Origin: Methyloversatilis universalis EHg5
Lineage (GTDB): Bacteria; Pseudomonadota; Gammaproteobacteria; Burkholderiales; Rhodocyclaceae
Length of the DNA: 64,000 nt
Reading direction: 5' to 3'
NCBI RefSeq assembly: GCF_000378945.1
Contig: NZ_KB900539.1
Span: 3,546,122-3,610,121 of the forward strand
Shown here: positions 7,202 through 62,937 of the stretch, in pieces
Layout: each line of letters starts with the position of its first letter
Numbering within the stretch: position 1 is the stretch's first letter
Position numbers and translations under genes: made by a program
Notes under the pieces: model-generated
Seen by the model: the letters and a program-made list of their open reading frames with translations, nothing else
Told to the model about the DNA's origin: nothing
Database searches by the model: none

Positions 7202-7244
7202 GCCAGTCTCCTCGGATGTGTTCTATTGACGCCCGTGGTCGCGC

Positions 7245-7487: not shown

Positions 7488-7494
7488 GTCCGCC

Positions 7495-8556: not shown

Positions 8557-8560
8557 TACT

Positions 8561-8589: not shown

Positions 8590-8630
8590 TGGTTTTGGGT
8601 GGGCGAGAGTACAGTCCTCCCGTCCACTGC

Positions 8631-8677: not shown

Positions 8678-8826
8678 CGCGTCAGGCGGAAGAAGACCGG
8701 CCACTCGGGTCACCCGGCACCACGGAAGAAGCCGGACCGGCTCGCAGGAGGTCGAACAAGCGCTGCAGCGCAACATCGGCACGCCGGCCCGGCGTGACCG
8801 GCACCGGTCTGGAGGAGGCACGGGCA

Positions 8827-10518
<1,692 letters not shown>

Positions 10519-48140: not shown

Positions 48141-49484
48141 TCAGCGCACGCCGCGCACGACCATGCCTTCAGGCGTCAGCAGGTTGGCCGACGGCGGCGG
48201 CTCGGCGATCTGGATCGGGCTCTTCTCGTCGGTGTTCAGCGTGACCGTGTAGGAACCCTTGATGAAATCCATCGTGACCCAGTGACGCAGATTGACGGCG
48301 GGCATTTCCGGCATCAGGGTCGGATAGCCGACGCTGGTGTGCCACAGGCGGCCCTGCGCGTCCCAGGTGTTGCCGATCACCATGGTCCAGCTGTCCTCGT
48401 CGGCATACAGCTTGCGGCGCGCACGCACGTCACGCTGGCCCTCGCGCACCGTGCCCTCGATCTCCCACACCCGGTGCAGCTCCCAGCGCACGGCGTCCGG
48501 ATTGGTGTAGTTCTTGCCGATCAGGTCCTTGTGCGGCGTCAGCAGCAGACGGTTGTTGTTGTAGGGGATGAACATTTCCTTCTTGCCCACGATCTTCCAG
48601 TCGTAACGGTCCATCGGGCCGAAGAAGATGAAGGGCTGGTCGAAGAAGTCGACCCCGGAGTTCACGAAGTTGGGCGTGTCGCAGCACAGATTGGGCGCGC
48701 GGCGCACGCGGCGCTGGCCGACCAGGTACTGCCAGGAGGCACGGGTGTTGTCCAGGCTGTCGCGGAACATGAGCAGTTCGCCGGCGCGCACCGACGGTGC
48801 GCTCACCGACTGCAGCACGCCGAAGTAATAACCTTTCTGCAGCGACTCGACCGACTCCGACTTCTCGTAATACGGCACGCGGATTTCATTCACCGCACCG
48901 GTGGCCAGCGCCGAGGTGCCGCTGGCGTCGATCACGTAGCTGTGCATCGGCCACACGATGCCGGCCGGATGCACGCGCAGGTTGTGGTTCCACACCACTT
49001 CGGCGCCGCTCTTCGGAATCGGGAACGGGGGGCCGCCGAAGGCGTTCTTGACGGCGAAGCCCTCAAGCTTGGTGCGGGTGGCGTTCTTGAAGGTTTCCTC
49101 GTACACCCACTCCGGCGCCGCCGCGGTACGGTGGGTCTTGTAGACGTTGAGCTTGTAGTCCGGGTACTTCTTCAGCAGGTAGACCTGACCTTCGTCCAGC
49201 TTGTCGGCGTACTGCGCCATATTGGCCGCGGTGATGGTGAACAGCGGCTTTTCGTCAGCGAACGGGTCGATGCGCGGCGTGCCCTGCTTGTAGCCGGCCG
49301 GCGCCTTGGCATAGCCACCGGTCCAGGCCGGAATGCTGCCGTCCTTGTTGCCGGCCTTCTCCGCGCCCAGCGGCGTCAGTTCGGTTTTCAGCTTCGCCGC
49401 TTCATCGGCGCCCACGGCAGCCAGTGCGCCGCTTGCGGTCGTCAGCGACAGCAGCGCCACCGACAGTGCGTTCATCAGTTTCAT
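48141..49484 (-). CDS. DUF1329 outer-membrane lipoprotein-carrier-like protein
   Basis: A 447-residue exported protein (signal MKLMNALSVALLSLTTASGALA). The DUF1329 core is visible from LKTELTPLGAEKAGNKDGSIPAWTGG through NNNRLLLTPHKDLIGKNYTNPDAVRWELHRVWEIEGTVREG. Family members are structurally like LolB and occur with DUF1302 proteins in steroid, alkane and polyester-degrading bacteria. The reaction or ligand is unknown; handling of hydrophobic molecules across the periplasm is the usual guess. It lies 20 bases after the DUF1302 stop. Confidence 0.88.
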   Translation of the reverse strand: MKLMNALSVALLSLTTASGALAAVGADEAAKLKTELTPLGAEKAGNKDGSIPAWTGGYAKAPAGYKQGTPRIDPFADEKPLFTITAANMAQYADKLDEGQVYLLKKYPDYKLNVYKTHRTAAAPEWVYEETFKNATRTKLEGFAVKNAFGGPPFPIPKSGAEVVWNHNLRVHPAGIVWPMHSYVIDASGTSALATGAVNEIRVPYYEKSESVESLQKGYYFGVLQSVSAPSVRAGELLMFRDSLDNTRASWQYLVGQRRVRRAPNLCCDTPNFVNSGVDFFDQPFIFFGPMDRYDWKIVGKKEMFIPYNNNRLLLTPHKDLIGKNYTNPDAVRWELHRVWEIEGTVREGQRDVRARRKLYADEDSWTMVIGNTWDAQGRLWHTSVGYPTLMPEMPAVNLRHWVTMDFIKGSYTVTLNTDEKSPIQIAEPPPSANLLTPEGMVVRGVR

Positions 49485-49504: not shown

Positions 49505-51187
49505 TCAGAATGAGCGCTGCAGCGTGACGGACACGAAATCGCGGTCCGCCAGGCTCTGCTTGAAGGTGAGGTCAGGCGTCAGGTCGGGACGCAGCACCAC
49601 GGCCGGGCCTTCCGAACCGAAGTAGTGGGTGTAGCGGATGCCCGCCTTCCACACCTGCTGATACAGGCCGTTCAGACCGATGCTGAAGTCGCCGCCCTTT
49701 TCCACGCCGCCGTTGAACTGCGCCACCGCACCCGAATTGCCCTTGGGGTTGTAGCCGACGCCGATCGGCATCGACAGGTCGAGGCCGGGCAGCGCCTGGA
49801 ACCAGTTCGGCTCCAGGATGAAGCGCAGGCCCCAGGCGTCGCGCGACGAGTTCGGATCGAGCGCGGCGCGGTTGCGGGTGACGCTGGTGACGCGGTTCCA
49901 CGCCACTTCGGCCAGCAGCATCGCGCTGTCCCAGAAGGCGGTGCGGTTGAACGAGAAGATGGCCGACAGGTTGGCGTGCGCGGTCTTGCCGATGGCGTAC
50001 AGCGCATCGCCGTTGATGCCGGCGCTGCCGGTCGGGCTGACATCGATTTCCGGCGCGCTGACCAGCGGTGCGTTGCGGCGGAAGGACACTTCACCGGACA
50101 GGTTGAAGTCGGCCACTTCGGTACTGAAGCTCATGCCGTACGTCTTGATGCCTTCCGGATACACGTGCTGGAAGTTGGCCGGCGCACCCGGCACGCCCAG
50201 CGCACCGAGCGGGCGCAGATAGGCCTGCGGCAGCTTGTCGTGGTAGCGCGCGACATAGAAGCCGAACTCGGTGTCCATGCCTTCCGGACGCCAGCGCAGC
50301 TGCGCGCCGCCCTGACCGGAATCCCTGGCGTCGAGGTCGTCCAGCCGCGCCACCGACGGCGCCAGGCCGACCGGGCCGAACAGGAAGTTTTCCGAACCCA
50401 TGCCCAGCACATCGACGGTCGAGAAATAGCTGCCGGACGACGGGATGCGCGACTTGCGCCATTCGAACTGGTAGTAGGCGCCGACCGAGAGGTTGCTCTT
50501 GATCTGGTACTGCGCCGAAATCTGGTTCACCGGCAGGATGATTTCCTTGAACTGCGAACCGGGCACCGACAGCAGCTTCACCACGTCGACCGGCTGCTGG
50601 GCGCCGGCAATGCCGTTGGCGCCGAAGAACAGCGTTTCGCCGTACAGCACCGAGTGACGGCCGAGGCGGAAACCGCCATCCTCGTTCTTCGCCCAGATGA
50701 AGGCGTCGAGCAGTTCCGCCTTGCGACCGTGGATCTTTTCGGTGGCATCGGTGAATTCGTTGAACGGCACCGAGGTCTGGTTGGCGCGCAGCGGGCTGTC
50801 GTGGTCGTTCGAGCGGTTGTACACGCTGTCATACCAGGCGGCCGCGCTGACGCGGGCGCCGACCCGCTGTCTGTAGGAGAGGTCCAGTTCGCTCAGCACG
50901 TCGATCCGGTTCGAAATCAGGCCGCGGTCGAAATTGCGGTCACCGTCATCGAGGTCGATATTGGCCGAGCCGGGCGCCACGTCGTTGACCAGCGCCGACG
51001 AGCGGTTCTCGACCCGCCAGGCAGCGCTGTACTTGAAGGTGTTGTCCCAGCGGATCTTCAGATCCGGATTGTCGTTGGCGATCTCGAAACCGTACGCGGA
51101 CGGTGCCGAAAACGCGGCGGCGATGGCGAGCAGCAGCGCCTGCCGGTGGGCGGGGCAGCGGCCTGCGCCCGGGATGCGTTCGAACAT
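49505..51187 (-). CDS. DUF1302 outer-membrane beta-barrel-like protein
   Basis: A 560-residue exported protein with a signal peptide (ALLLAIAAAFSAPSAYG) and alternating-strand sequence ending in a C-terminal Phe (VSVTLQRSF), as expected of an outer-membrane barrel. The DUF1302 signature FEIANDNPDLKIRWDNTFKYSAAWRV opens the mature protein. First gene of the operon DUF1302-DUF1329-YCF48-RND. The 423-base gap upstream holds the LysR-type promoter motif but no gene I can support; 51188-51390 would be an unusually long leader of about 200 bases. Confidence 0.88.
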   Translation of the reverse strand: MFERIPGAGRCPAHRQALLLAIAAAFSAPSAYGFEIANDNPDLKIRWDNTFKYSAAWRVENRSSALVNDVAPGSANIDLDDGDRNFDRGLISNRIDVLSELDLSYRQRVGARVSAAAWYDSVYNRSNDHDSPLRANQTSVPFNEFTDATEKIHGRKAELLDAFIWAKNEDGGFRLGRHSVLYGETLFFGANGIAGAQQPVDVVKLLSVPGSQFKEIILPVNQISAQYQIKSNLSVGAYYQFEWRKSRIPSSGSYFSTVDVLGMGSENFLFGPVGLAPSVARLDDLDARDSGQGGAQLRWRPEGMDTEFGFYVARYHDKLPQAYLRPLGALGVPGAPANFQHVYPEGIKTYGMSFSTEVADFNLSGEVSFRRNAPLVSAPEIDVSPTGSAGINGDALYAIGKTAHANLSAIFSFNRTAFWDSAMLLAEVAWNRVTSVTRNRAALDPNSSRDAWGLRFILEPNWFQALPGLDLSMPIGVGYNPKGNSGAVAQFNGGVEKGGDFSIGLNGLYQQVWKAGIRYTHYFGSEGPAVVLRPDLTPDLTFKQSLADRDFVSVTLQRSF

Positions 51188-51398: not shown

Positions 51399-51428
51399 AC
51401 AATAAGAGGGGCCAGCCATGCCGTCCAA
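51399..51428 (-). promoter_or_regulatory. Promoter of the DUF1302-RND operon
   Basis: Minus-strand TTGGAC (51423-51428), 18-base spacer, TATTGT (51399-51404). The -35 overlaps the conserved GTATTGGAC half-site, which fits a LysR-type activator bound against the -35. Predicted start is near 51391. Confidence 0.5.
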
Positions 51429-51464
51429 TACTTTTTGACAGCTACATCAATACCGAAAAAGTAT
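51423..51464 (-). promoter_or_regulatory. LysR-type box (ATAC-N7-GTAT plus GTATTGGAC) before the DUF1302 gene
   Basis: ATAC-CGAAAAA-GTAT at 51450-51464 is the BenM/CatM-type LysR recognition pattern (T-N11-A core). A second half-site, GTCCAATAC on the plus strand (GTATTGGAC on the minus), lies 22 bases closer to the gene. The same two elements with the same spacing precede dmpC (55037-55077) and dmpR2 (62896-62937), always on the minus strand. Confidence 0.6.
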
Positions 51465-51610
51465 GTACATGCGCGTTTGAAAGCCCTCCTCCGCGTGTGG
51501 AAAACGCAGGTCAAAACACTTTCAATTCATGGGTTTGGGCCGCCGCATGACGCGACACGCCCGGCGATGTACGCGCCGCCGGCCACCGGCCGACCACGCA
51601 CCGAGGGTGC

Positions 51611-51826
51611 TCAGATGCCTTCAGGCACCTGCTGCTTCTCGCTGCGCAGTCCGGCGGTCACGCCGGCCACCGAAAAGTCTTCGCTGCCGTGCTCGGTCAC
51701 CAGGATGCGCACGGTTTCCGCCTTCACGCCGAGCGTGGTGCACACCGCGTCGGTGATGGCGGCGGCGACCGCGCGCTTCTGTTCCACGCTGCGGCCGGTC
51801 ATCAGGTGCATTTCTATGATGGGCAT
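51611..51826 (-). CDS. dmpI: 4-oxalocrotonate tautomerase
   Basis: A 71-residue tautomerase converting 2-hydroxymuconate (enol) to the 2-oxo form in the 4-oxalocrotonate branch. After Met removal the catalytic Pro1 is exposed (M-PIIEMHLMTGRS); the conserved arginine is present in VRILVTEHG context. It is a little longer than the 62-residue classical XylH/DmpI. The ATG at 51824-51826 has GGAGGAG upstream. Last gene of dmpC-E-H-I, 32 bases after dmpH. Confidence 0.9.
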   Translation of the reverse strand: MPIIEMHLMTGRSVEQKRAVAAAITDAVCTTLGVKAETVRILVTEHGSEDFSVAGVTAGLRSEKQQVPEGI

Positions 51827-51858
51827 GTTCTCCTCCTTGTCTTTTTGTGCGCTGCGCG

Positions 51859-52662
51859 TCAGTCGACGAAGCGCATCGATACGTCGCCCAGTTCCTGGAA
51901 ACGCGCGATCACGCAGTCGCCTGCCTTGACCGCGATCGCTTCGGTGATGCCGCCGCTCATGACGAAGCTGCCGGCCGGCAGCGTTTCGCCCTGTTCGGCC
52001 AGGATGTTCACCAGCATGGCCACCGCGTCCGCCGGGTGGCCGAGCACCGCTGCAGAGGCCGCCGCGGCCACGATTTCGCCGTTCTTCTCCATCACCACGC
52101 CCAGCGTGCGCAGGTCGATGTCCTGCGGCCGCCGCGCACGGCCACCGCCGACGAAGCGGGCGGACGAACCGTTGTCGGCCACCACGCTGGGCAGGTCGAA
52201 CTTGAAGCCGGAAAAGCGCGAATCGATCACCTCGACCGCGGGCAGCACGTAATCGGTGGCCGCCAGCACCTGTTCGCGGGTGCAGCCGGGGCCGGCCAGC
52301 GGCGCACAGGTGACGAAGGCCACTTCGCACTCGACCCGCGGATGCACCATGTCGCCGGTGGAAATGGCCGAGTTCTCCGGCCGCGCCATATCGCTGGTCA
52401 GGAAGCCGATGCTGGGCACGTTCACGCCCATCTGCACCATCTTGGCCTTCGAGGTCAGGCCCACCTTCCAGCCGACCTGCCGGTGGCCGCGCGCCAGCCA
52501 GCGGCGGCGCAGCTCGGCCTGCACCGCATAGCCGTCGGCCACCGTCATCGCCGGGTATTCGTCGGTCAGCTTCGGGATGGCGTATGCCCGGGTCTGCGCG
52601 CCCTCGACGCGCTCGCACAGACGCACGATGTCTTCCCTGGACAGCGTCAGCTCGCTGCTCAT
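51859..52662 (-). CDS. dmpH: 4-oxalocrotonate decarboxylase
   Basis: A 267-residue metal-dependent decarboxylase giving 2-hydroxypenta-2,4-dienoate. Landmarks shared with DmpH/XylI: VGWKVGLTSKAKMVQMGVNVPSIGFL, EVIDSRFSGFKFDLPSVVADNGSSARFV, LGVVMEKNGEIV and AVLGHPADAVAMLVNILAEQGE. The hydratase next door is a paralogue; the MVQMGV and SSARF wording separates the decarboxylase. Its ATG overlaps the dmpE stop (ATGA), typical of the DmpE-DmpH pair, which form a complex. Confidence 0.92.
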   Translation of the reverse strand: MSSELTLSREDIVRLCERVEGAQTRAYAIPKLTDEYPAMTVADGYAVQAELRRRWLARGHRQVGWKVGLTSKAKMVQMGVNVPSIGFLTSDMARPENSAISTGDMVHPRVECEVAFVTCAPLAGPGCTREQVLAATDYVLPAVEVIDSRFSGFKFDLPSVVADNGSSARFVGGGRARRPQDIDLRTLGVVMEKNGEIVAAAASAAVLGHPADAVAMLVNILAEQGETLPAGSFVMSGGITEAIAVKAGDCVIARFQELGDVSMRFVD

Positions 52663-53456
52663 ACCGCACTCCTTCCGGTGAATTTCACCCGGCAGCTGCC
52701 CAGCCCGCCGACGGTGCACACCAGTTCGTCGCCACCGGTCACCGGCACCAGCGCCGACTGCGAACCGGACAGGATGATTTCGCCGGCGCGGAACGGAATG
52801 CCGAGCCGGCCCAGCGTGTTGGCCAGCCAGGCCACCGCGTTGGCAGGTGAGCCCTGCACCGCGGCGCCGACGCCGGTCGAATGCAGTTCGCCGTTCTTCT
52901 CCAGCACCATGCCGGCCATGGTGATGTCCAGCCGGCGCGGGTCGCCGCGCGTTTCGCCGAGCACGAACACGCCGCAGGAGGCGTTGTCGGCCACCGTATC
53001 CTGGATGCGGATCTTCCAGTCGGTGATGCGCGAATCGACGATTTCGAAACAGGGCGCCACGTAGTCGGTGGCGTGGATCACGTCCATCGCGGTGATGCCC
53101 GGCCCCTTCAGGTCGTGCTTGAGCACGAAGGCCAGTTCGGCTTCGGCCTTGGGCTGTATCAGCCGGCCGAGGTCTATCGGCTCGCCTTCGCGATACACCA
53201 TGCCGGACGTGAGCTGGCCGAAGTCCGGCTGGTACACGCCGAGGAAGTCCTGCACCGGCTTGCTGGTCACGCCTATCTTCTTGCCGACGATGGTTTCGCC
53301 GGCGTCGAGCCGTCGCTGCACCATGCGCAGCTGTATGCGGTAGGCATCATCCAGCGTGATGTCCGGTTCGCGCTCGAGCAGCGGCGGCACCGTGCGGCGC
53401 TCGACCAGCGCCGCATAAAGCTCGTCGCCGTAAGCCTGGATCTTTTGTGCGTCCAT
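52659..53456 (-). CDS. dmpE: 2-hydroxypenta-2,4-dienoate hydratase
   Basis: A 265-residue hydratase making 4-hydroxy-2-oxovalerate. Landmarks of DmpE: GKKIGVTSKPVQDFLGVYQPDFGQLTSGMVY, EIVDSRITDWKIRIQDTVADNASCGVFVLG and VAWLANTLGRLGIPFRAGEIILSGS. The ATG at 53454-53456 gives MDAQKIQAYGDELY, matching family starts. The next enzyme in the route, the DmpG aldolase, is not in the window. Confidence 0.93.
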   Translation of the reverse strand: MDAQKIQAYGDELYAALVERRTVPPLLEREPDITLDDAYRIQLRMVQRRLDAGETIVGKKIGVTSKPVQDFLGVYQPDFGQLTSGMVYREGEPIDLGRLIQPKAEAELAFVLKHDLKGPGITAMDVIHATDYVAPCFEIVDSRITDWKIRIQDTVADNASCGVFVLGETRGDPRRLDITMAGMVLEKNGELHSTGVGAAVQGSPANAVAWLANTLGRLGIPFRAGEIILSGSQSALVPVTGGDELVCTVGGLGSCRVKFTGRSAV

Positions 53457-53475
53457 GATGTGCGTAAAGAGAGTG

Positions 53476-54936
53476 TCAGAGCTTGACGCAGACGTTGCGC
53501 AGCTCGGTGTAGAACTCCAGCGAATGCACGCCGCCTTCACGACCGATGCCGGACTGCTTGGAGCCGCCGAAGGCGGTGCGCAGGTCGCGCAGGAACCACG
53601 CATTCACCCAGGTAATGCCGACCTGGATCGCCGCCGCCATGCGGTGTGCGCGCGCGAGGTCCTGCGTCCAGATCGTGGTGGACAGGCCGTATTCGTTGTC
53701 ATTGGCCAGCGCGGTGACCTCCGCCTCGCTGTCGAAGGGGCGGATGTGGCAGCAGGGGCCGAAGATTTCCTCGCGCACCACCGCCGCGGTTTCCGGCAGG
53801 CCGGTCCAGATGGTCGGCTGCACCCAGGCGCCGTCGGCCAGATCGGCCGGCATGTCGGGCACGCCGCCACCGGTGACCACGGTTGCGCCCTCCTCGACCG
53901 CGCGCTGGTAGTAGCCCAGCACCTTGCGCCGGTGCTCATGACTGATCAGCGGACCGTAAGTGGTGGCGTGGTCTTCCGGCCGGCCGTATTTCACCGACTC
54001 GGCGCGCACCTTCAGCGCCTGCACGAAGCGCTCGAACAGCGGGCGCTCGACATAGACGCGCTCGGTGCCCAGGCAGACCTGGCCGGAATTGAGGAAGCAT
54101 GAGCGGAACACGCCGTCGACCGCAGCATCGAAATCGGCGTCGGCGAACACGATGGCGGCGTTCTTGCCGCCCAGTTCGAAGGACACGTCGCGCATGCCTT
54201 TCGCGGCCGCCTGCATGATCACTTCACCGGTACGCGTTTCGCCGGTGAAGGTGATGGCATCGACGCCCGGATGCGCGGTCAGGAAGGCGCCGGCCGAATC
54301 CGGCCCGAAGCCGTTCACCACGTTGTACACGCCGCGCGGCACGCCCACCGCATTCATCACCTCACCCAGCAGCGCGGCGGTCAGCGGCGTCTCTTCCGAC
54401 GGCTTCACCACCACCGTGTTGCCGCAGGCCAGCGCCGGGCCCACCTTCCAGGTCATCAGCAGGAAGGGGGCGTTCCACGGGCACACCACGCCGATCACGC
54501 CCTTGGGCACGCGCAGCGTGTAGTTCAGCGCGCCGCGGCCGTCCGGCGTCGGCGTCTGGAAGGATTCGTTCGCCACGTTCCGGATCACGTCGGCGAACAC
54601 CTTGAAATTGGCCGCGCCGCGCGGAATGAAGGCGTGCTTCATCACGTGCTGCGGCTGGCCGGTGTCGGCCATTTCGGCGGCGACGAAGTCGTCGAAGCGG
54701 CGGGTGATTTCGTTGGCCACGCCGTACAGCAGATCGACCCGCTGATCCAGCGTGAGCCGGCCCCACTCGCCCGTCAGCGCACGCCGCGCGGCTGCGACCG
54801 CCGCCTCCACCTCGGGCTGGCCGCCTTCGCTGATCCGGGCCACCAGGCTGTTGTCGACCGGCGAGCGCTTCTCGAACTGCCGGCCGCTGAGACTCGACGT
54901 GTATTCACCGTCGATGAAGTGATCGATGACGCGCAT
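53476..54936 (-). CDS. dmpC: 2-hydroxymuconic semialdehyde dehydrogenase, copy 2
   Basis: A full-length aldehyde dehydrogenase (486 residues, the length of DmpC). NAD-binding CPWNAPFLLMTWKVGPALACGNTVVVKPSEETP; catalytic glutamate in SFELGGKNAAIVF; catalytic Cys in FLNSGQVCLGTERVYV; C-terminal FGGSKQSGIGREGG. The ATG at 54934-54936 gives MRVIDHFIDGEY, the usual N-terminus. First gene of the dmpCEHI operon, 19 bases before dmpE. It is very similar to the truncated copy at the left edge, so the window holds two semialdehyde dehydrogenases. Confidence 0.95.
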   Translation of the reverse strand: MRVIDHFIDGEYTSSLSGRQFEKRSPVDNSLVARISEGGQPEVEAAVAAARRALTGEWGRLTLDQRVDLLYGVANEITRRFDDFVAAEMADTGQPQHVMKHAFIPRGAANFKVFADVIRNVANESFQTPTPDGRGALNYTLRVPKGVIGVVCPWNAPFLLMTWKVGPALACGNTVVVKPSEETPLTAALLGEVMNAVGVPRGVYNVVNGFGPDSAGAFLTAHPGVDAITFTGETRTGEVIMQAAAKGMRDVSFELGGKNAAIVFADADFDAAVDGVFRSCFLNSGQVCLGTERVYVERPLFERFVQALKVRAESVKYGRPEDHATTYGPLISHEHRRKVLGYYQRAVEEGATVVTGGGVPDMPADLADGAWVQPTIWTGLPETAAVVREEIFGPCCHIRPFDSEAEVTALANDNEYGLSTTIWTQDLARAHRMAAAIQVGITWVNAWFLRDLRTAFGGSKQSGIGREGGVHSLEFYTELRNVCVKL

Positions 54937-55036
54937 GCATGCTCCGTTGAGAGTGGGCCGACCGGTCGCGCCTGCGGGCGCTGCGAGCACCGGAACGGTC
55001 GGGTTGAGAACAGTCTATGAGCCGCTTCTCTATACC

Positions 55037-55077
55037 GTCCAATACCTTTTATTTTGATTTCAATACTATTTTGGTAT
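55037..55077 (-). promoter_or_regulatory. LysR-type box (ATAC-N7-GTAT plus GTATTGGAC) before dmpCEHI
   Basis: ATAC-TATTTTG-GTAT at 55063-55077, extended to the palindrome TTTCAATAC-N7-GTATTGAAA (55058-55082), with the GTCCAATAC half-site at 55037-55045, 21 bases nearer the gene. A weak promoter overlaps it: TTGGAC (55037-55042), 17 bases, CATAGA (55014-55019). The region is far richer in A and T than its surroundings and is shared with the divergent toxin-antitoxin promoter. Confidence 0.62.
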
Positions 55078-55087
55078 TGAAACAAAC

Positions 55088-55114
55088 GATCGAATTATCG
55101 CCAAATGATCGAAT
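55088..55114 (+). promoter_or_regulatory. Direct repeats upstream of the toxin-antitoxin operon
   Basis: GATCGAAT occurs at 55088-55095 and 55107-55114, 19 bases apart, each followed by AT-rich sequence. They lie just ahead of the -35 box, a typical place for autoregulation by a ParS/Xre-type antitoxin complex. Confidence 0.4.
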
Positions 55115-55126
55115 AAATCCGGCCAT

Positions 55127-55155
55127 TTGAATAAAACCAAGCCTAAACCTATACT
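55127..55155 (+). promoter_or_regulatory. Sigma-70 promoter of the toxin-antitoxin operon
   Basis: TTGAAT (55127-55132), 17-base spacer, TATACT (55150-55155), then AAGGAG (55166-55171) eight bases before the antitoxin ATG. Confidence 0.75.
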
Positions 55156-55178
55156 GAGATCCTGCAAGGAGATGCCCC

Positions 55179-55775
55179 ATGGCGCATAAATTCGTCCTCC
55201 CGGCCAGGGCGGAAACGAAACATGTGACGACCCGCAAGCGACCGGTGTCTGGTCAAGTAGTCAAGCAAGCCAAGACTCCGGCCGCATTCGCTGACATGCA
55301 GGCCCGTTTTACGGAAGGACGGGGTCCAACGAATCGCGACGGCTGGAACAAGCTTTTCAAGGCGTATTACGTGACCGACCGTTTAACCATCCGTGACTCG
55401 ATCCGGCAAGGCGTACCGGCGCGCAACATCGGAATGCTGGCCAACGTACTCGAACTGCCGTCACTCCGGATCGCAGGCGCACTGGGCATTCCCGAATCGA
55501 CCGTGCGCCGGAAAGTCCGGGAGAATGCCCAACTGGCTCCGGATCAGACAGAGCGCCTGCTGGGCCTTCAGCGACTGATCGGTCAGGTACAGGCCATGGT
55601 CGAGGAAAGCGGAAACCCGGAAGATTTCGACGCAGCGAGCTGGACCAGAAAATGGCTCGATGAGCCCCATCCTGCGCTGGGCGGTGCGCGGCCCATCGAT
55701 TACCTCGATACGATGACCGGTCAGCAGATCCTCGCCGATCTGCTCTCACGTAACGTCACTGGGGCGTACGCTTGA
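55179..55775 (+). CDS. Xre/MbcA/ParS-type antitoxin (DUF2384)
   Basis: A 198-residue antitoxin. The centre has an Xre-like helix-turn-helix region (GMLANVLELPSLRIAGALGIPESTVRRKVRE, about 85-120). The C-terminus carries the MbcA/ParS toxin-binding signature: ARKWL-like TRKWLDEPHPALGGARPIDYLDTMTGQQILADLL. It is encoded directly upstream of, and overlaps, a RES-domain toxin gene. The N-terminal 55 residues are basic and longer than in minimal antitoxins. It should neutralise the toxin and repress the operon. Confidence 0.88.
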   Translation: MAHKFVLPARAETKHVTTRKRPVSGQVVKQAKTPAAFADMQARFTEGRGPTNRDGWNKLFKAYYVTDRLTIRDSIRQGVPARNIGMLANVLELPSLRIAGALGIPESTVRRKVRENAQLAPDQTERLLGLQRLIGQVQAMVEESGNPEDFDAASWTRKWLDEPHPALGGARPIDYLDTMTGQQILADLLSRNVTGAYA

Positions 55776-56263
55776 GCGAAGCACTGGCCACGGTATGGCG
55801 TATCGGAGTCGACACCCCGTCGTACCAGGCTTCGGATCTGAACGGAGAGGGCGGCAAGCACAGTGACGGTCGCTGGCACAGGAAAGGCTCACCGATTGTC
55901 TACGCCGCCAGTTCGGTCTCGCTCGCCTGTCTTGAGACACTGGTTCATCTTGGGCCGGCAGGTCTGCCGTTGAACCGCTATCTCGTCCGTATCGATGTAC
56001 CGGAGTCGTTGATACAGCGGGCACGGGTTCTCACCGCCGAGACAGCCGGCGTCGGCTGGGACGCCCGACCCGCCGGGATGGTGTCGATGGACCATGGCGA
56101 CGAATGGCTCGCCAGCATGGACTCCGCACTCCTCGTCGTACCCTCCGTGCTGGTACCAGAGGAAAACAACGTACTGATCAACCCTCTGCACCCGGACGCT
56201 CGTTCCATCGCGGCAACCAAGCTTCGGCTCTGGACCTATGACCCGCGCCTGGGTGCTCGATAG
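55772..56263 (+). CDS. RES-domain toxin (NAD-degrading family)
   Basis: A 163-residue RES family protein. The name-giving residues appear in order: Arg in VWRIG, Glu in SLACLETLVH, and a Ser in the later MDSALLVVPSVLVPEENNVLINPLHPD segment, the family's characteristic C-terminal block. RES toxins deplete NAD+ when free of antitoxin. The start is a TTG at 55772 that overlaps the antitoxin stop (TTGA), so translation is coupled and the toxin level kept low. It ends 60 bases from the convergent dmpP2 stop. Confidence 0.88.
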   Translation: MSEALATVWRIGVDTPSYQASDLNGEGGKHSDGRWHRKGSPIVYAASSVSLACLETLVHLGPAGLPLNRYLVRIDVPESLIQRARVLTAETAGVGWDARPAGMVSMDHGDEWLASMDSALLVVPSVLVPEENNVLINPLHPDARSIAATKLRLWTYDPRLGAR

Positions 56264-56323
56264 AACATCGCTCACGTGCCGGAGGCCGGCTCGCGCGCAA
56301 CCAGCAGCCGGGACCCATTGCTC

Positions 56324-57394
56324 TCAGATGTTGCGGAACAGAGGGCTGCGCACCTGCTGGGCGTCGGCGGCGGACACGAACTTTTCGCAGTAGATGTCCT
56401 TCTCGAACAGCCGCCCCTGCATCAGTGTGGCGATGCAGGCCTCTATCATGCGCGGCGGCCCGCACAGATAGGCTTTCCAGCCGCGGAAATCATTGTCGAA
56501 GGCGGCCTGCGCCGCCTCGTGCACGAAGCCACGGAAGCCGCTCCAGCCGCTGTCCGCCGGCTCGTCGGACAGCGCCGGCAGGTAGCGGAACTGCGGGTGA
56601 CGCGCAGCCAGCGCGACGAATTCATCGTGGTAGTACAGCTCGTCGCGGCTGCGCGCACCGTACACCAGCGTGATCGGCTGCGTATCGCCGCGCTCCAGCA
56701 GATCCAGGATCATCGAGCGCGGGCTGGACAGCCCGGAGCCGCCGGCCAGGAACAGCGAAGGCCGCGCCGCCGAGTGGCGCACGAAGAAGCGGCCGTAGGG
56801 CCCGGACAGCTTCACCCGGTCGCCGGCCTTCAGCGCTTCGTGCACCCAGGTGGTGCCGCGGCCGCCGGGCACGATGCGGATGTTCAGTTCGATGTCGTGC
56901 GTCGGCCCCTGCGCGGCGGACGGTGGCGACGCGAGCGAGAACGCGCGCGTCATGCCCGGCTCGGCACCGATGTCCAGATTGATGTACTGGCCGGCCTGGA
57001 AGTGCAGCGGCCGGTCGAGCCGGATGAACACGCCCTTGATGGTGGGCGTGAGCGCCTCGATGCGGCTCACTTCGCCGGTGAAGTCGCGCACCGGAATCGA
57101 TTCGGCATCCGGATCTTCCTCGACATCCGCTTCGATGGTGACGTCGCTTTCCAGTCGCGCGCAACAGGCCAGGGTCTTGCGCTCCTCGCGCTCGAAATCC
57201 ATCAGCGCGAAGCTGGACGCCTCGCCGTGATCGACCTCGCCGTCCACCACCTGCACCTTGCAGGTGGCGCACAGGCCGTGGCAGCAGGCGTGCGGCAGGT
57301 AGATGCCGGCGCGCAGGCTGGCATCCAGTATGGTCTGGCCGTCTTCGACCTCTATCGTCTGGCCGAGCGGTTCTATCGTGAGCTGATAGGTCAT
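56324..57394 (-). CDS. dmpP: Phenol hydroxylase reductase component, copy 2
   Basis: A 356-residue reductase with the same order as copy 1: [2Fe-2S] domain (HACCHGLCATC), FAD domain (RAFSLAS) and NAD domain (LFLAGGSGLSSPRSMI). It has a four-residue insertion after the FAD motif (SAAQGPTHDIEL). The ATG at 57392-57394 lies 11 bases after the dmpO2 stop. Last gene of operon 2: no DmpQ ferredoxin or catechol dioxygenase follows. Confidence 0.94.
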   Translation of the reverse strand: MTYQLTIEPLGQTIEVEDGQTILDASLRAGIYLPHACCHGLCATCKVQVVDGEVDHGEASSFALMDFEREERKTLACCARLESDVTIEADVEEDPDAESIPVRDFTGEVSRIEALTPTIKGVFIRLDRPLHFQAGQYINLDIGAEPGMTRAFSLASPPSAAQGPTHDIELNIRIVPGGRGTTWVHEALKAGDRVKLSGPYGRFFVRHSAARPSLFLAGGSGLSSPRSMILDLLERGDTQPITLVYGARSRDELYYHDEFVALAARHPQFRYLPALSDEPADSGWSGFRGFVHEAAQAAFDNDFRGWKAYLCGPPRMIEACIATLMQGRLFEKDIYCEKFVSAADAQQVRSPLFRNI

Positions 57395-57405
57395 CGCCGC
57401 TCCGT

Positions 57406-57762
57406 TCAGACCGCGCCCGGCAGGGCTTCGAGCCCCGGCGTCTGCAGCCGCAGCACTTCCTTGTGGCCAATGCCGTTGTCGGCCAGCGAGCGCTCGAAAT
57501 CCGGATCGAACGCTTCGCCCGAACGCAGCCAGCGCACGGCCGACCAGTCGATGGACGACCACTGCGGATGCACCGACCACGCCTCGGCCAGCGGGCCGCG
57601 CACCAGTTCGCCGAAGGTCATGGCCGGCGGCAGGCACAGGCAGACCGGCGCATAGAACATGAGGTGCCTGTCCCAGCCGACATAGAGCAGCTGGTTTCCG
57701 TGGAAGCGGTCGACCGTGTCTTTCGGTACGCCGACATAGGGGGCAATGGCAACGACGGGCAT
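57406..57762 (-). CDS. dmpO: Phenol hydroxylase component P4, copy 2
   Basis: A 118-residue gamma subunit: FHGNQLLYVGWDRHLMFYAP, FGELVRGPLAEAWSVHPQW, NGIGHKEVLRLQTPGLEALPG. The ATG at 57760-57762 gives MPVVAIAPYVG; ten bases separate it from dmpN2. It differs from copy 1 more than the alpha subunits differ from each other. Confidence 0.92.
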   Translation of the reverse strand: MPVVAIAPYVGVPKDTVDRFHGNQLLYVGWDRHLMFYAPVCLCLPPAMTFGELVRGPLAEAWSVHPQWSSIDWSAVRWLRSGEAFDPDFERSLADNGIGHKEVLRLQTPGLEALPGAV

Positions 57763-57772
57763 GACGGTCTCC

Positions 57773-59320
57773 TCAGTTCCGGGTGGCCTGGGCACGCCAG
57801 GCGGCAAAGTTCTTCTGGTCTTCCGAGCCCTCGAAATCGAGGTTGTCGCGCCCGTAGACCAGATGCCAGTAATCGAGCACCGACTTCAGCGGATCGAAAT
57901 CCGGCGCGCCGGGGTCGGCGCCTTCGGCGAAGCAGTTGCCCTGCCAGATCTGGTGCGCCGGCAGCCAGGCCTCGACGTACTTGTCCGGCTCACGCTCGAA
58001 GATGTGCTGGCAGTGGTCGGAGCAGAAGTGGTACTTGTCGCCCTGGTGCGTGACCTGGCGATAGGAGATCTGCGTCGGGTCGTCGGCTTCGGTGAACAGC
58101 ATCGGGATCTGGCACACCTGGCACAGCATGGGCAGCGTGGTGTTGTAGAAGCGCTTGCCCTGCTTCTCCATCTCCCGGTAGTGCTCGAAGCGCGGGCGGT
58201 ACAGGCGGTCGAAGGTGTCCGGGTACTTGGACGACAGCCAGTCCATCTCTTCCTCGGTCGGCAGCCAGGTGTGGAAGTTGGTCATCTTGCCGGCGGTGTA
58301 GAAGGCATTCCACGCCTGGTGCGACAGGTGATCCTTCTCCTTCTTGATCAGTTCCACGCAGTCCGGCACCTTGATGCCGTAGCGCGCGAGGTCCTTGAAC
58401 AGCGCCATGCCGTTCTCCTCGAAATACACCTCCCACGCCTCCTTCCAGCTCATGATGCGTTTGGGCAGCATGTAGTCCATCAGCATGGCGACGATGGACA
58501 GCAGGCGCACGCCGCGCCACACCCATTTGTCTATCCAGGCCTGGATGATGGGCAGGTTGGCCGGATCCTGCTCCAGCATGAACTTGATCACCTCCAGCCC
58601 CAGCGTCATGTGGCGCGCCTCGTCGGACTGCGCCGAAAAGCCGAAGGTCATCGCGCCCATGTCACCGTTGTAGGCGGCGCCGGAAATGAAGGGCACGAAC
58701 ACCAGATTGGTGAGCACGTACTCGAAGGAGAAGCCGATGGCGATGATGAATTCGAAGGGGCCGCAGGTGCACGCGTCCTCGAAGAAGCTCTTCGGCACCG
58801 ACAGGTACCAGAGCCGGTCATTCATGTGCTTCCAGTCGTGGAAGCCGTTGTAGAAGCGGTTGTAGTTCGACAGCGAGTGGATCTGCGTCTGCGCGTGGCG
58901 GATTTCGTCGATGGCCTGCATCTGGCAGGCGATCTGCGGACCGACGCCCGGCAGTTCGCGGCCCAGCCGCGCGAAGCCGCGGTGCGCGTTGTATTCCAGC
59001 GAGGGCACCGCCGACAGGAATATCTTCAGCGCATTGATGTAGCGCGCGTCGGTCACGCCGAGGTGGCCGTTATTCTGCGCATAGGCATCGACGATGGCGT
59101 ATAGCTTGCGCTCCTTCTCCGCCTGGTATTTCCAGTAGGCATCCATGGTCAGCCGGAACGGGTCTTCCCACTTGTCCCAGTCGTGGATCCGGATGCCTTC
59201 GTAGCGGGTCTGCGGGAACACCGCGTCCATCGGTTCGTAGCTGGTTTCCCAGCCCAGGCTGCGGGTCATCAGCGCGTACTTTTCCTTCAGGCCCAGCTTC
59301 TTCTTTACGTTCATGTCCAT
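57773..59320 (-). CDS. dmpN: Phenol hydroxylase large (di-iron) oxygenase subunit, copy 2
   Basis: A 515-residue catalytic subunit. Di-iron ligands are conserved: Glu109, Glu139 and His142 (DEIRH), Glu200, Glu234 and His237 (DEARH). The C-terminal metal-binding YHS-like part (CQVCQIPMLF, YHFCSDHCQHIF) is intact. Compared with copy 1, differences cluster around residues 118-135 and 160-190 (for example ACTCGPFEF against AITAGPFEF), near the substrate channel region, so the two enzymes may differ in preference for methylated phenols; that is inference. Confidence 0.96.
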   Translation of the reverse strand: MDMNVKKKLGLKEKYALMTRSLGWETSYEPMDAVFPQTRYEGIRIHDWDKWEDPFRLTMDAYWKYQAEKERKLYAIVDAYAQNNGHLGVTDARYINALKIFLSAVPSLEYNAHRGFARLGRELPGVGPQIACQMQAIDEIRHAQTQIHSLSNYNRFYNGFHDWKHMNDRLWYLSVPKSFFEDACTCGPFEFIIAIGFSFEYVLTNLVFVPFISGAAYNGDMGAMTFGFSAQSDEARHMTLGLEVIKFMLEQDPANLPIIQAWIDKWVWRGVRLLSIVAMLMDYMLPKRIMSWKEAWEVYFEENGMALFKDLARYGIKVPDCVELIKKEKDHLSHQAWNAFYTAGKMTNFHTWLPTEEEMDWLSSKYPDTFDRLYRPRFEHYREMEKQGKRFYNTTLPMLCQVCQIPMLFTEADDPTQISYRQVTHQGDKYHFCSDHCQHIFEREPDKYVEAWLPAHQIWQGNCFAEGADPGAPDFDPLKSVLDYWHLVYGRDNLDFEGSEDQKNFAAWRAQATRN

Positions 59321-59330
59321 GGCGTTCTCC

Positions 59331-59600
59331 TCAGCGGTCCCAGCTCAGCGTCAGTTCGTCTTCGGTCTCGTCCACGTGACCGGACAGCGATATCAGGTGG
59401 ACCTGCACTTCCTGCAGGTCGAAGTCGCGGCCCAGCCGCTCCTCGATGGAGGTGCGGCGGATCACCAGCCGGCCGGGCATGTCGATCTTCACCATGGCCG
59501 GCTGCAGATTGACCGTGGCCTCCGGGTTGTCGGCGACGATGGCGTCGACGATGCAGCGGCTGTCCTCGTTGGCCTGCAACGCGATGAACACCTTAGACAT
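59331..59600 (-). CDS. dmpM: Phenol hydroxylase effector (coupling) protein, copy 2
   Basis: An 89-residue P2 protein (MSKVFIALQANEDSRCIVDA; LQEVQVHLISLSGHVDETEDEL). The start overlaps the end of dmpL2 by eight bases, tighter than in operon 1, where a 10-base gap is present. Confidence 0.94.
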   Translation of the reverse strand: MSKVFIALQANEDSRCIVDAIVADNPEATVNLQPAMVKIDMPGRLVIRRTSIEERLGRDFDLQEVQVHLISLSGHVDETEDELTLSWDR

Positions 59601-60606
59601 GGCCGCCCTCCTTCAGCGCGACGCCCAGCTTCGCGACGCGGGCGTCGAACGCTTCGGTCACCGTGTCCAGCACCTTTTCGCCGTCCTGGTCGAAGGCCAG
59701 TTCCGCGACCGGCAGCAGCGCCTCGCGCACCCGGCCGCGCCAGTGCGCGAGCCAGCCGGCGATCAGCGCCGCGTTGGCCGGCGATTCGGCGGCCGCGGTC
59801 TTCACCGTGGCGTCCACCCAGCGGCTGGATTCGGCGAACCACTCGTTCATGAAGGCGCACACCATGGACACCGCGGCACCGCCCTCGGCGTTGAGCCGGC
59901 GGTCGACGAAGTGCGCATACACCAGCGGATACAGCAGACCGTCCTGCACCAGGTTCTGCGCGACGAACAGCTCAAACCAGTCCTTCACCACCAGGCTGTT
60001 CTCGACCTGACGGCGCAGCGGCTGCCAGCGGCCGTCGCCCAGCCAGTGGCTGCGGCCGTCTTCCAGTTCAGCCGGGCCGGCCAGCCACAGGCCGATGCGG
60101 GTGAGGTACTGGGCGATGCCCAGATGGTCCATGCCCTGGTACATGCAGGGCTGGGTGACTGCGGTGCCGTAACCGTAGGCGCACATGCCGACGTTGTTCA
60201 GGTTGGCGCCGTAGGCGACGTGGCGCAGCGGCACCAGCACGTCGAGCGCACGGCGGCGCACGTCGTCCGGCATCAGGTCGCCCAGGCCGCGCGTCTCGAC
60301 GAAATCGAAACCGGCTTCGGCCGCCTCCTGCATGCGGGCGCGCGCCAGCGTGTAGGTGCCGTAGTAGAACTGGCGCGGGTCCTTGAAGGCGTACCAGTCC
60401 TGCATCACGATCGCGGTGCGCGCCGGGTCGTACAGCTGGTGGGCCGGGTCCCAGGTCGGGCGGTACTGCAGGTTGGCGCTGGGCTGGATGTCCAGCGTGC
60501 CTTCCTGGTAGCGGCTGGCCGCCTTGTCGGCGCCGATGCGCCGCGCGATGTGGTCGAAGGTGTGGCGCAGTGGCGTGATCGCCACCGTGCGCAGATCGAT
60601 GTGCAT
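59593..60606 (-). CDS. dmpL: Phenol hydroxylase beta subunit, copy 2
   Basis: A 337-residue P1 subunit: MHIDLRTVAITPLRHTFDHIARR, YRPTWDPAHQLYDPAR, MQDWYAFKDPRQFYYGTYTLARAR, ANLNNVGMCAYGYGTAVTQPCMY. Seven residues longer than copy 1, mainly by its C-terminal ALKEGGHV. It follows dmpK2 after 49 bases. Confidence 0.95.
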   Translation of the reverse strand: MHIDLRTVAITPLRHTFDHIARRIGADKAASRYQEGTLDIQPSANLQYRPTWDPAHQLYDPARTAIVMQDWYAFKDPRQFYYGTYTLARARMQEAAEAGFDFVETRGLGDLMPDDVRRRALDVLVPLRHVAYGANLNNVGMCAYGYGTAVTQPCMYQGMDHLGIAQYLTRIGLWLAGPAELEDGRSHWLGDGRWQPLRRQVENSLVVKDWFELFVAQNLVQDGLLYPLVYAHFVDRRLNAEGGAAVSMVCAFMNEWFAESSRWVDATVKTAAAESPANAALIAGWLAHWRGRVREALLPVAELAFDQDGEKVLDTVTEAFDARVAKLGVALKEGGHV

Positions 60607-60655
60607 GAGGTTCTCCGGTTTCGGCGCAAGCCCGCGGCGCGGGCCGGTGCGGGTT

Positions 60656-60892
60656 TCAGCTGGGGCGTGCGGACAGGGCGGGTGCTTCCTGCCCGTCGTC
60701 GATGCGGGTGACCGAGTGGATGCCGCAGAACTCGTCGAACGCCCGGTCGGGCAGCATCATTTCGACGAACAGCGCGCGCTCGCCGATGGCGAACTCGAAC
60801 TCGACCAGCCCGTCCGGCCGGCGATGGGTGACGCGCACGAACTTGCGCGCCAGAACGTCCTGCGGGCTATCGCCCGCCTGCGTTTGCTGCAT
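60656..60892 (-). CDS. dmpK: Phenol hydroxylase assembly protein, copy 2
   Basis: A 78-residue P0 protein (FVRVTHRRPDGLVEFEFAIGERALFVEMMLPDRAFDEFC). The ATG at 60890-60892 is preceded by GAGGAGGA, a strong ribosome site; a longer frame upstream crosses the promoter and is rejected. First gene of operon 2, 65-75 bases after the predicted sigma-54 start site. Confidence 0.92.
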   Translation of the reverse strand: MQQTQAGDSPQDVLARKFVRVTHRRPDGLVEFEFAIGERALFVEMMLPDRAFDEFCGIHSVTRIDDGQEAPALSARPS

Positions 60893-60967
60893 TGCGATTC
60901 CTCCTCGTCCTGTCGGATGGGCGTCCGGCCTTGTCGGGCGGCCGGATCGGTGCTGCACCGTGATCAA

Positions 60968-60983
60968 TGCAGCCGGCGTGCCA
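60968..60983 (-). promoter_or_regulatory. Sigma-54 promoter of the second dmpKLMNOP operon
   Basis: Minus-strand TGGCACGCCGGCTGCA matches YTGGCACGrNNNTTGCW with correct spacing; only the first T of TTGC and the r position differ. Predicted start is near 60957. Upstream sites are not obvious: TTCTG-ACCTGC-CAGAA at 61043-61058 is the best inverted repeat at a suitable distance, but it does not resemble the sites of operon 1. Confidence 0.75.
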
Positions 60984-61102
60984 GAATTGGCAAGCCATTG
61001 AAGGACAAGGGAATCGCAAACAATGACGCCCCGGCGGGCCCGTTCTGACCTGCCAGAAACGTCAAGCGTGGAAAGGGCGCTGTACAGAATTGTCAACGCC
61101 GG

Positions 61103-61127
61103 GTTTGCGCTGCACCGCAGCGCAAAC
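61103..61127. other. Perfect palindrome between dmpR2 and dmpK2
   Basis: GTTTGCGCTGC-ACC-GCAGCGCAAAC, an 11-base stem with a three-base loop, five bases beyond the dmpR2 stop. It lacks a T-run on either strand. It may be the dmpR2 transcript-end hairpin or a binding site about 160 bases upstream of the dmpK2 start. Confidence 0.6.
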
Positions 61128-61132
61128 AGCGG

Positions 61133-62824
61133 TCACAGACCGGCGTCGAGGTCCTTCAGCCGGTAGGCGATCTGGCGCCGCGTGACGCCGAGCAGGCGGG
61201 CGGCTTCGGACACGTTGCCGCGTGCCCGGGTGAGCGCGGCGCGCATCAGCGCGCGCTCGTGCTGTTCCAGATCGAAGCCGGGCACCAGCAGGCGGTCGAG
61301 CGCATCGGCGTCGCCCTCGCTGCCGGCCGCACACAGGCTGCCGGACGCGCCGACCGCCTCGCCCGGTTCGATGGCCGGTTCGATGCCGGCGAACAGGTGG
61401 CTGGCTTCGATGAAACCGCCCTGCGGCGCCAGCAGCACGCCGCGCTCCACCATGTTTTCCAGTTCGCGGATATTGCCCGGCCAGTCATAGGCCTGCAGGC
61501 TCTGCACCGCGCGGTCGGTCAGGCCGGCCAGCCGCTTCTGGTAGATGGCCGCGTACTTCTCGACGAACAGCTCGACCAGCAGCGGAATGTCGGCCAGCCG
61601 CTCGCGCAGCGGCGGAATGACGACCGGGTAGGCATTCAGCCGGTAGTAGAGGTCGGCACGGAAGCGCCCCTCCTTCACCGCGCGCCGCAGATCCACATTG
61701 GTGGCCGCCACCAGCCGCACATCCACGGTGCGGGTGCGGTGGTCGCCCAGCCGCTCGACCTCGCCGGTCTGCAGCACACGCAGCAGCTTGGCCTGGGCGG
61801 CCGGGGAAATGTCGCCGATCTCGTCGAGAAAAAGCGTGCCGCCATGCGCGCGCTCGAAGCGGCCGGGGCGCGACTGCTGCGCGCCGGTGAAGGCGCCGCG
61901 CTCGACGCCGAACAGTTCGGACTCGATCAGGTCGTTCGGCAGCGCCGCGCAATTGACCGCGACGAAGGGCTTCAGCTGGCGCGCGCCGTTGTCGTGCAGC
62001 CAGCGCGCGAACATTTCCTTGCCGACACCGGTTTCGCCCAGCAGCAGCACGGTGATCGGGTTGTCCGCCGCCTTCTGCACCAGGTCGAAGGCGGCGCGGA
62101 AGCCCTGCGACGCGCCGATCAGATTGCCGCGGCCGCGCTGTTCGCCGAGCGAGGCGCGCAGCTGCGACACCTGTTCCTGCAGCGCCATCAGTTCGCCGAC
62201 GATGTTCTCCGGCTCGAAATAGCGGATGTGCGCCTCCGCGCCCTCGCCTTCCCACTCGTCCGCCACCTTGCCCTCGATCACGCAGCAGGGATCGCCGCGG
62301 CTCACGCACTGGGTTTCGCGGAACACCACGAAGCGGTTCATGAACTGGGTGACGTAGCCGGAGGCGTAGCCGATCATGGTCCAGCAGGCCGGCCCGTCGC
62401 CGAGGCCGAAATCCTGTAGCTGGGCTTCCGCCTCCCACGAGTTGTCCCAGCGGAAAGTGCCGTGGAAATGGCCGCGCTTCAGATCCAGTTCGGAATGCAG
62501 CGTGCTCGCCCGCACCAGCCCCTCCAGCCGGTGCAGCTGCGGGCCGAGCAGGAACACGTCTTCCAGCGCGCCGTCGCCGACCAGGCGCTTGGCCAGTTCG
62601 GCGTCCTGCTGGCCGGACACGAAGCCCATGCGCACCAGCAGCGCGCGGGCGCGCTCCTGCCCCAGTGAATTCAGCAGCTCGCGGCGCAGCGCGCCGAGCG
62701 CCCGCGCATGCAACAGCAGCATGCGGTTTTCCTGCAGCCAGATCCGCCCTTCTTCGGTGCAGAAACGCAGGTGATTGCGCAGCGCAAAGCGGTCCAGCAG
62801 ATCCTGCTCATTGTTGTTGTGCAT
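61133..62824 (-). CDS. dmpR: DmpR/XylR-type sigma-54 activator, copy 2
   Basis: A 563-residue activator with the same plan as copy 1: XylR_N effector domain, V4R domain (MIGYASGYVTQFMN; CVSRGDPCCVIEG), AAA+ ATPase ([27 protein letters not shown]) and a Fis-type helix-turn-helix (RGNVSEAARLLGVTRRQIAYRL). The ATG at 62822-62824 (MHNNNEQDLLDRF) is chosen because GAGGAG precedes it; a frame from 63037 runs through the promoter region. Unlike copy 1 it is transcribed toward and in line with its target operon. The effector domain is clearly diverged from copy 1, so effector range may differ. Confidence 0.92.
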   Translation of the reverse strand: MHNNNEQDLLDRFALRNHLRFCTEEGRIWLQENRMLLLHARALGALRRELLNSLGQERARALLVRMGFVSGQQDAELAKRLVGDGALEDVFLLGPQLHRLEGLVRASTLHSELDLKRGHFHGTFRWDNSWEAEAQLQDFGLGDGPACWTMIGYASGYVTQFMNRFVVFRETQCVSRGDPCCVIEGKVADEWEGEGAEAHIRYFEPENIVGELMALQEQVSQLRASLGEQRGRGNLIGASQGFRAAFDLVQKAADNPITVLLLGETGVGKEMFARWLHDNGARQLKPFVAVNCAALPNDLIESELFGVERGAFTGAQQSRPGRFERAHGGTLFLDEIGDISPAAQAKLLRVLQTGEVERLGDHRTRTVDVRLVAATNVDLRRAVKEGRFRADLYYRLNAYPVVIPPLRERLADIPLLVELFVEKYAAIYQKRLAGLTDRAVQSLQAYDWPGNIRELENMVERGVLLAPQGGFIEASHLFAGIEPAIEPGEAVGASGSLCAAGSEGDADALDRLLVPGFDLEQHERALMRAALTRARGNVSEAARLLGVTRRQIAYRLKDLDAGL

Positions 62825-62895
62825 GCAAGCTCCTCGCGGGTGTCGTCGCGCGCCCTGCTCCTCGCCGGCCACCTTAGCCTGCGCCGCAAGCGCCT

Positions 62896-62937
62896 GTCCA
62901 ATACCCGGCGCCGCACCGCCGCATACCGTGACGGTAT
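62896..62937 (-). promoter_or_regulatory. LysR-type box (ATAC-N7-GTAT plus GTATTGGAC) before dmpR2
   Basis: ATAC-CGTGACG-GTAT at 62923-62937 lies inside the perfect palindrome GCATACCGT-G-ACGGTATGC (62921-62939). The half-site GTCCAATAC is at 62896-62904, 22 bases nearer dmpR2, as at the DUF1302 promoter. A -10 is weak (TAAGGT at 62871-62876, 19-base spacer from TTGGAC). The site also lies about 100 bases ahead of the divergent Rieske gene and could serve both. Confidence 0.6.

Follow-up and report, generated by a model that had tools for sequence, protein, structure and literature searches.

Four composite promoter sites beside a phenol meta-pathway cluster of Methyloversatilis universalis are predicted to form one LysR-controlled regulon

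Introduction

Are separate gene runs that begin behind the same pair of sequence elements controlled by one regulator? The locus that raises this question is a stretch of 64,000 nucleotides (the window, C1:3546122-3610121) from the 4,088,571-base genome of Methyloversatilis universalis EHg5 (G000). Three runs on its minus strand are each preceded by a composite of a dyad, ATAC-N7-GTAT, and, closer to the gene, GTATTGGAC. We conclude that these three composites and a fourth one beyond the window are very probably the promoters of one regulon under a LysR-type regulator encoded next to the window, a regulon predicted from sequence to include a cascade through the sigma-54 activator DmpR2.

AphT, a CatR/ClcR-type LysR regulator, was found in only several Comamonadaceae and Rhodocyclales of the set studied by Suvorova and Gelfand (2019, PMC6449761). 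According to the accessible parts of that paper, its predicted targets are lower meta-pathway genes with a COG1028 gene and a DUF1302/PF07044/COG1033/COG4447 operon. A cascade from AphT to LapR, an AphR homolog, was predicted in Azoarcus BH72, and no LapR sites were found there before the lap genes. The accessible main text does not mention Methyloversatilis, and this was the only paper on AphT among the literature matches listed; the accessible text of a paper on Zoogloea oleivorans (PMC7012976) makes no mention of a regulator. For CatR and ClcR, the recognition motif is given as AkACC-N5-GGTAT with an adjacent activation site (PMC6449761). In the benA and catB regions of Acinetobacter baylyi, Site 1 of BenM and CatM is ATAC-N7-GTAT, with further sites near it (PMC6628147, accessible part).

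Results

Four composites in the genome

A motif scan of the window recovered all three of the composites that a first-pass annotation had reported (Table 1). The window holds exactly three copies of ATAC-N7-GTAT and exactly three of GTATTGGAC, paired one to one, and the distance from GTAT to GTAT is 22 bases at the site at 51450, 21 at 55063 and 22 at 62923. A scan of the whole genome, suggested earlier as a check, used the pattern ATAC-N7-GTAT-N14-24-GTATTGG and its reverse as control. It returned four composites, ATAC-N7-GTAT / N17-18 / GTATTGG, on one strand and within 23 kb, versus none for the reversed pattern and 0.006 per genome expected by chance from the base composition of the window. 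The motif is therefore not found at random frequency, and a chance origin is ruled out by these counts and controls. The fourth composite carries GTATTGGAT where the other three have GTATTGGAC. Taken singly, ATAC-N7-GTAT occurs eight times in the genome, four of them in the composites (reversed control, three), and GTATTGGAC six times, three of them in the composites (control, four). A relaxed scan (at most 3 mismatches, 18-base spacer) added two weak matches versus one in the control.

The genes behind the four sites are those of phenol breakdown, of its regulation and of an envelope cluster. The site at 51450 precedes a DUF1302 - DUF1329 - YCF48-like - MMPL run. The site at 55063 precedes the gene for 2-hydroxymuconic semialdehyde dehydrogenase (HMSD), followed by hydratase, decarboxylase and tautomerase genes, and the site at 62923 an XylR/DmpR-type activator gene (dmpR2), followed by phenol hydroxylase genes. 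Behind the fourth site is a run for a ferredoxin, acetaldehyde dehydrogenase, a DmpG-type aldolase, catechol 2,3-dioxygenase (C23O), an SDR protein and a tautomerase.

A LysR gene beside the window

The first-pass annotation predicted a LysR regulator and noted none in the window; we found a LysR gene 2.9 kb beyond the window end. Searching the genome for the LysR substrate-binding family returned 26 matches, 24 of them above the cut-off; one match (C1:3613282-3613899) is inside the cluster. Among the 12 sequences listed, the best solved relative of this candidate is 1ixc (213 bits), which we take to be CbnR, with BenM and CatM following. Its DNA-binding region is close to that of BenM. Residue 38, which the accessible part of PMC6628147 places in the recognition helix, is Q here versus N in BenM. 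The next best by score of the 26 matches is only 25.5% identical over 290 residues (92 bits), and the candidate is therefore the only good one for a BenM/CatM-type site. Among its plasmid relatives, no AphT name appeared in the matches listed (20 of at least 5000). Back to back with it lies a gene for a MalT-like LuxR-family regulator (L005:1285-3945), with a 71% homolog placed likewise in a second genome of the genus, G206.

Co-occurrence of site and regulator

We surveyed 249 genomes of the family for the composite (spacer 16-19) and for a LysR ortholog (E <= 1e-90). The composite occurs in 37 genomes, its reversed control in 1 and the ortholog in 38; 36 genomes have both, one (G052) has the site only and two (G014, G108) the LysR gene only (Fisher p = 7.5e-40). 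The G052 composite is probably a chance match: it has TTGGCC, and none of the reference genes was recognised behind it.

A second set comprised 80 LysR-relative loci from named genomes, kept of 345; the best named match is a Methyloversatilis metagenome-assembled genome, at 89%. Exact composites, 53 in total (control 0), occur in 49 of the 80 loci: 47 of the 63 loci with a LysR protein at least 60% identical and 2 of the 17 below that. When up to 3 mismatches in 16 positions are allowed, 57 of the 80 loci (49 of 63 and 8 of 17 in the same two classes) have a composite in the 350 bases before the LysR gene, versus none of 80 in a control with one shuffle each. Six of the 49 exact-composite loci, the Methyloversatilis one among them, have no such composite in that interval.

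Promoter anatomy

The 80 named loci, the stretches at 60 of the 62 family sites outside our genome (two duplicate-looking G116 sites were omitted) and our own four gave a pool of 119 sites, or 97 distinct ones after removal of those identical over the first 100 bases. Related species share similar promoters, and these sites are therefore not independent events. The spacer is 18 bases in 91 of the 97 and 17 in the other 6. The dyad consensus is ATACC-N5-GGTAT, the inner C and the inner G each at 81%, which is a likeness to CatR/ClcR, as is the best score of 1ixc among solved structures. GTATTGG is followed by A in 99% of sites, C in 92% and G in 89%. TANNNT occurs 18 bases past TTGGAC in 70 sites and 19 bases past it in 18, a total of 88 of 97; no other spacer between 1 and 35 has it in more than 6. 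This fixed spacing supports TTGGAC as a -35 element that would overlap the activation half-site. By sequence, then, the layout matches the CatR/BenM type: the dyad lies some 30 bases above -35, and -35 itself coincides with an activation half-site. The earlier claims of a -35 overlap and of LysR recognition and activation sites fit this arrangement, and the claimed BenM/CatM-type pattern equals Site 1 of PMC6628147, as given in its accessible part.

In G206, aligned with our genome over the three window promoters, the dyad, GTATTGGAC and the -10 are all kept. Alternatively, the composites might be alike only through copying of one promoter, without shared control. Three of the four sites do lie within 12 kb on one strand. 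However, the four sites differ in the 17-18 bases that separate the conserved elements, no long flanking identity was seen among the four site sequences, the same elements precede the same gene classes in many genera, and at 55063 the alignment with G206 breaks down above the dyad while the elements persist. We give mere copying almost no weight and continue with shared control.

Two further observations concern the DNA above these sites. An Xre/MbcA/ParS-type antitoxin gene and a RES-domain gene form a pair (55179-56263) directly upstream of the site at 55063, and the G206 stretch matching this pair aligns poorly. A block at about 51510-51540, around CATGAATTGAAAGTGTTTTGA and some 50 bases above the dyad at 51450, is kept in G206 as well as the promoter elements are.

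Target genes in relatives

Genes behind the 97 sites were recognised with 21 proteins of our own cluster as the only references, so other genes would go unseen. The first recognised gene encodes DUF1302 in 44 sites, HMSD in 21, C23O in 9, ferredoxin in 6, MMPL in 4, DmpR2 in 3, YCF48 in 3 and DmpK in 1, and 6 sites have none. For 82 of the 97, the start of a gene with 35% or more identity to one of our cluster lies within 400 bases.

The 83 longer loci contain 56 sites. At 29 of these a co-directional homolog that matches DmpR2 best lies downstream with no recognised opposite gene between, the DmpR2 label being the better of two reference proteins and not tree-based. The order is DUF1302-DUF1329-YCF48-MMPL-DmpR2 in 26 of the 29. 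Sixteen of the 56 sites have no downstream DmpR2 despite more than 8.5 kb of downstream DNA; for the remaining 11 the stretch is shorter. Many relatives have the composite between the LysR gene and a run divergent from it, DUF1302-DUF1329-YCF48-MMPL-dmpR2, which unites two of the three window targets beside that gene. In our genome the DUF1302 run and dmpR2 are apart, each with its own composite.

From DmpR2 to hydroxylase 2

A cascade from the LysR protein to DmpR2 and on to hydroxylase 2 had been proposed earlier, and it would fit the conserved -24/-12 element, TGGCACGCCGGCTGC, that stands ahead of hydroxylase 2. As listed, the dmpK frame opens above this element, so its true start must lie further down. 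Alternatively, the LysR protein might bind its sites without a functional cascade, because transcription from the dmpR2 promoter continues into hydroxylase 2 or because enough DmpR2 is made without LysR. The co-directional and close arrangement of dmpR2 and dmpK2 would allow this, and the separate hydroxylase 2 promoter is one -24/-12 match with one mismatch. Against it, the same 15 bases are unchanged in G206, and in G060 a composite stands directly before a dmpR2 homolog while the ferredoxin/C23O/hydroxylase run starts about 6 kb on, behind its own -24/-12 match. We consider the absence of a cascade unlikely, with a chance still worth keeping in mind, and favor the cascade.

A paralogous cluster and the rest of the genus

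A second meta-pathway and phenol hydroxylase cluster occupies window positions 3-10494 and G000:C1:3530000-3546122 (L007), with its own DmpR-type gene (8860-10494, plus strand). No composite was found in the window part of this cluster by the motif scan or in 410 bases before the paralogous dmpC1 (best, 7 mismatches). Six of the 13 genomes of the genus, our own included, have an HMSD gene (E <= 1e-150). G000 and G206 have both HMSD paralogs, the LysR gene and four composites each; G070, G152, G182 and G226 have only the 72-74% HMSD paralog and neither composite nor LysR gene.

A third XylR/DmpR-type gene (L005:11214-14218, G000:C1:3620213-3623217) is divergent from a gene for a VanA-like Rieske oxygenase, which has a perfect -24/-12 element at L005:13106. 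The fourth composite begins about 50 bases past the end of this third regulator gene. The longest open frame listed in the window, 6225 codons, lies at 18741-37418.

Table 1. Predicted promoter elements and associated genes (window positions unless a contig or locus is given)
Feature	Position	Strand	Remarks
LysR recognition dyad ATAC-N7-GTAT before dmpR2	62923..62937	-	predicted; 15 of 15 bases same in G206
GTATTGGAC, activation half-site overlapping -35 TTGGAC, dmpR2	62896..62904	-	predicted
-10 TAAGGT, spacer 19, dmpR2	62871..62876	-	sequence
LysR recognition dyad ATAC-N7-GTAT before dmpC2	55063..55077	-	predicted; ATAC and GTAT kept in G206
GTATTGGAC, activation half-site and -35, dmpC2	55037..55045	-	predicted
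-10 TAGACT, spacer 19, dmpC2	55012..55017	-	sequence
LysR recognition dyad ATAC-N7-GTAT before DUF1302 operon	51450..51464	-	predicted; one N7 change in G206
GTATTGGAC, activation half-site and -35, DUF1302 operon	51423..51431	-	predicted
-10 TATTGT, spacer 18, DUF1302 operon	51399..51404	-	sequence
Fourth composite	C1:3620124-3620163	same as other three	10 kb beyond window
Candidate LysR gene	L005:4025-4939 = C1:3613024-3613938		starts 2.9 kb past window end; LysR HTH and substrate domains
-24/-12 element TGGCACGCCGGCTGC before hydroxylase 2	60969..60983	-	one mismatch to TGGCAC-N5-TTGC
dmpR2, XylR/DmpR-type sigma-54 activator	61133..62824	-	XylR_N, V4R, Sigma54_activat, HTH_8
Phenol hydroxylase 2 genes	57773..61096	-	dmpK-, dmpL-, dmpN-like recognised
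dmpC2, HMSD	53476..54936	-	TIGR03216, 879 bits, cut-off 693
FAA_hydrolase-type hydratase/decarboxylase and tautomerase genes of dmpC2 run, dmpE/H/I-like	51611..53504	-	
DUF1302 protein	49505..51187	-	
DUF1329 (PF07044) protein	48141..49484	-	
YCF48/BNR-repeat protein	47018..48103	-	
MMPL/RND-type transporter	44586..47021	-	

Discussion

We propose that one LysR protein of the CatR/ClcR/BenM kind, the one encoded beside the window, activates all four promoters. The dyad would be its recognition site, and GTATTGGAC would serve both as activation half-site and as the -35 of sigma-70-type promoters. In this model a LysR tetramer would sit on the dyad and also contact the GTAT at -35, two turns of the helix away; once a meta-pathway metabolite is bound, polymerase would start from TTGGAC-N18/19-TANNNT. 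The regulon would comprise the dmpC2 run, the ferredoxin/acetaldehyde dehydrogenase/aldolase/C23O run, the DUF1302-DUF1329-YCF48-MMPL envelope cluster and dmpR2, and DmpR2 would then switch on hydroxylase 2 from its -24/-12 promoter.

This regulon resembles that of AphT (aph genes of Comamonas testosteroni TA441). Going by the accessible text on AphT, the two share a CatR/ClcR-type LysR protein, here encoded near a phenol meta-pathway cluster, and an odd palindrome, T-N11-A, before the target operons. By the position of the sites, the targets also match: lower meta-pathway genes and the DUF1302/PF07044/COG1033/COG4447 operon, together with a COG1028 gene and a DmpR-type gene (LapR in Azoarcus BH72). 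They differ in that here a composite is missing at the LysR gene and present before each of four separate runs, one of which is dmpR2 alone. BenM and CatM share with our system Site 1, with its T-N11-A, and a similar DNA-binding region; however, they control ben and cat genes, and their inducer is muconate, with benzoate as a further one for BenM (accessible part of PMC6628147). The targets of CatR and ClcR are catechol or chlorocatechol genes.

Of the earlier proposal of a regulon joining dmpR2, the lower meta pathway and the transporter cluster, the grouping is supported by the LysR gene and by the co-occurrence. Two points are to be amended: regulon and cascade had already been predicted for AphT (PMC6449761, accessible part), and the motif is not unique to this LysR protein. 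The locus therefore adds a confirmed and rearranged member to a regulon that had been a prediction, and it brings a sharper promoter model.

Several observations weigh against this interpretation. The candidate LysR protein, most likely of the AphT type, scores below the cut-off of every NCBIfam model, and the best of these is AlsR (256 bits), ahead of one generic LysR model, BenM (184) and CatM (178). Nine of the 97 sites have no -10 TANNNT at spacer 18 or 19. Fifteen have no convincing cluster gene: 6 none at all, 7 (MMPL and YCF48) with matches below 35%, and 2 (C23O) with a match about 1 kb off. No exact composite was present in the locus DNA of 31 of the 80 LysR-ortholog loci. Site and LysR gene are on different contigs or 45 kb apart in just four family genomes (G028, G115, G170, G184), and three of these separations are contig assignments in drafts. 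The two are thus mostly linked, and their co-occurrence and the repeated promoters therefore partly reflect shared descent.

Some of the contrary points would also favor another LysR protein of this genome as the one that binds the sites. In contrast to many relatives, no composite was found in 460 bases searched upstream of our own LysR gene (best, 6 mismatches). A stricter composite is present in 6 of 349 order-level genomes, ours included, and 4 of the other 5, from other families, have it next to a LysR gene with 32-46% identity to ours. We therefore reject the idea that the motif is specific to this ortholog, and the architecture belongs to a wider LysR group. However, the 26 LysR matches include no other close member, and the composite tracks this ortholog in 36 of the 37 site-bearing family genomes. 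We consider control by a different LysR protein very improbable, and assignment to the adjacent one is supported by co-occurrence, by where the gene lies and by the lack of any rival candidate.

The promoter model, with its dyad, its half-site at -35 and its -10 at fixed spacing, together with a candidate regulator, makes the published cascade prediction directly testable. The second meta-pathway cluster of the same genome, which lacks the sites, provides a natural control.

We speculate that the LysR protein senses a muconate-like ring-cleavage product (2-hydroxymuconic semialdehyde or 2-hydroxymuconate) and raises the level of phenol-sensing DmpR2, so that the lower pathway might exert positive feedback on the upper pathway and on the envelope transporter cluster. 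As part of the same tentative proposal, an older run of DUF1302-DUF1329-YCF48-MMPL-dmpR2, divergent from the LysR gene, may have been split in Methyloversatilis, with each unit keeping or regaining a composite. Through the shared promoters, a poorly understood envelope cluster (DUF1302, DUF1329, YCF48-like, MMPL) is tied to phenol metabolism in many genera.

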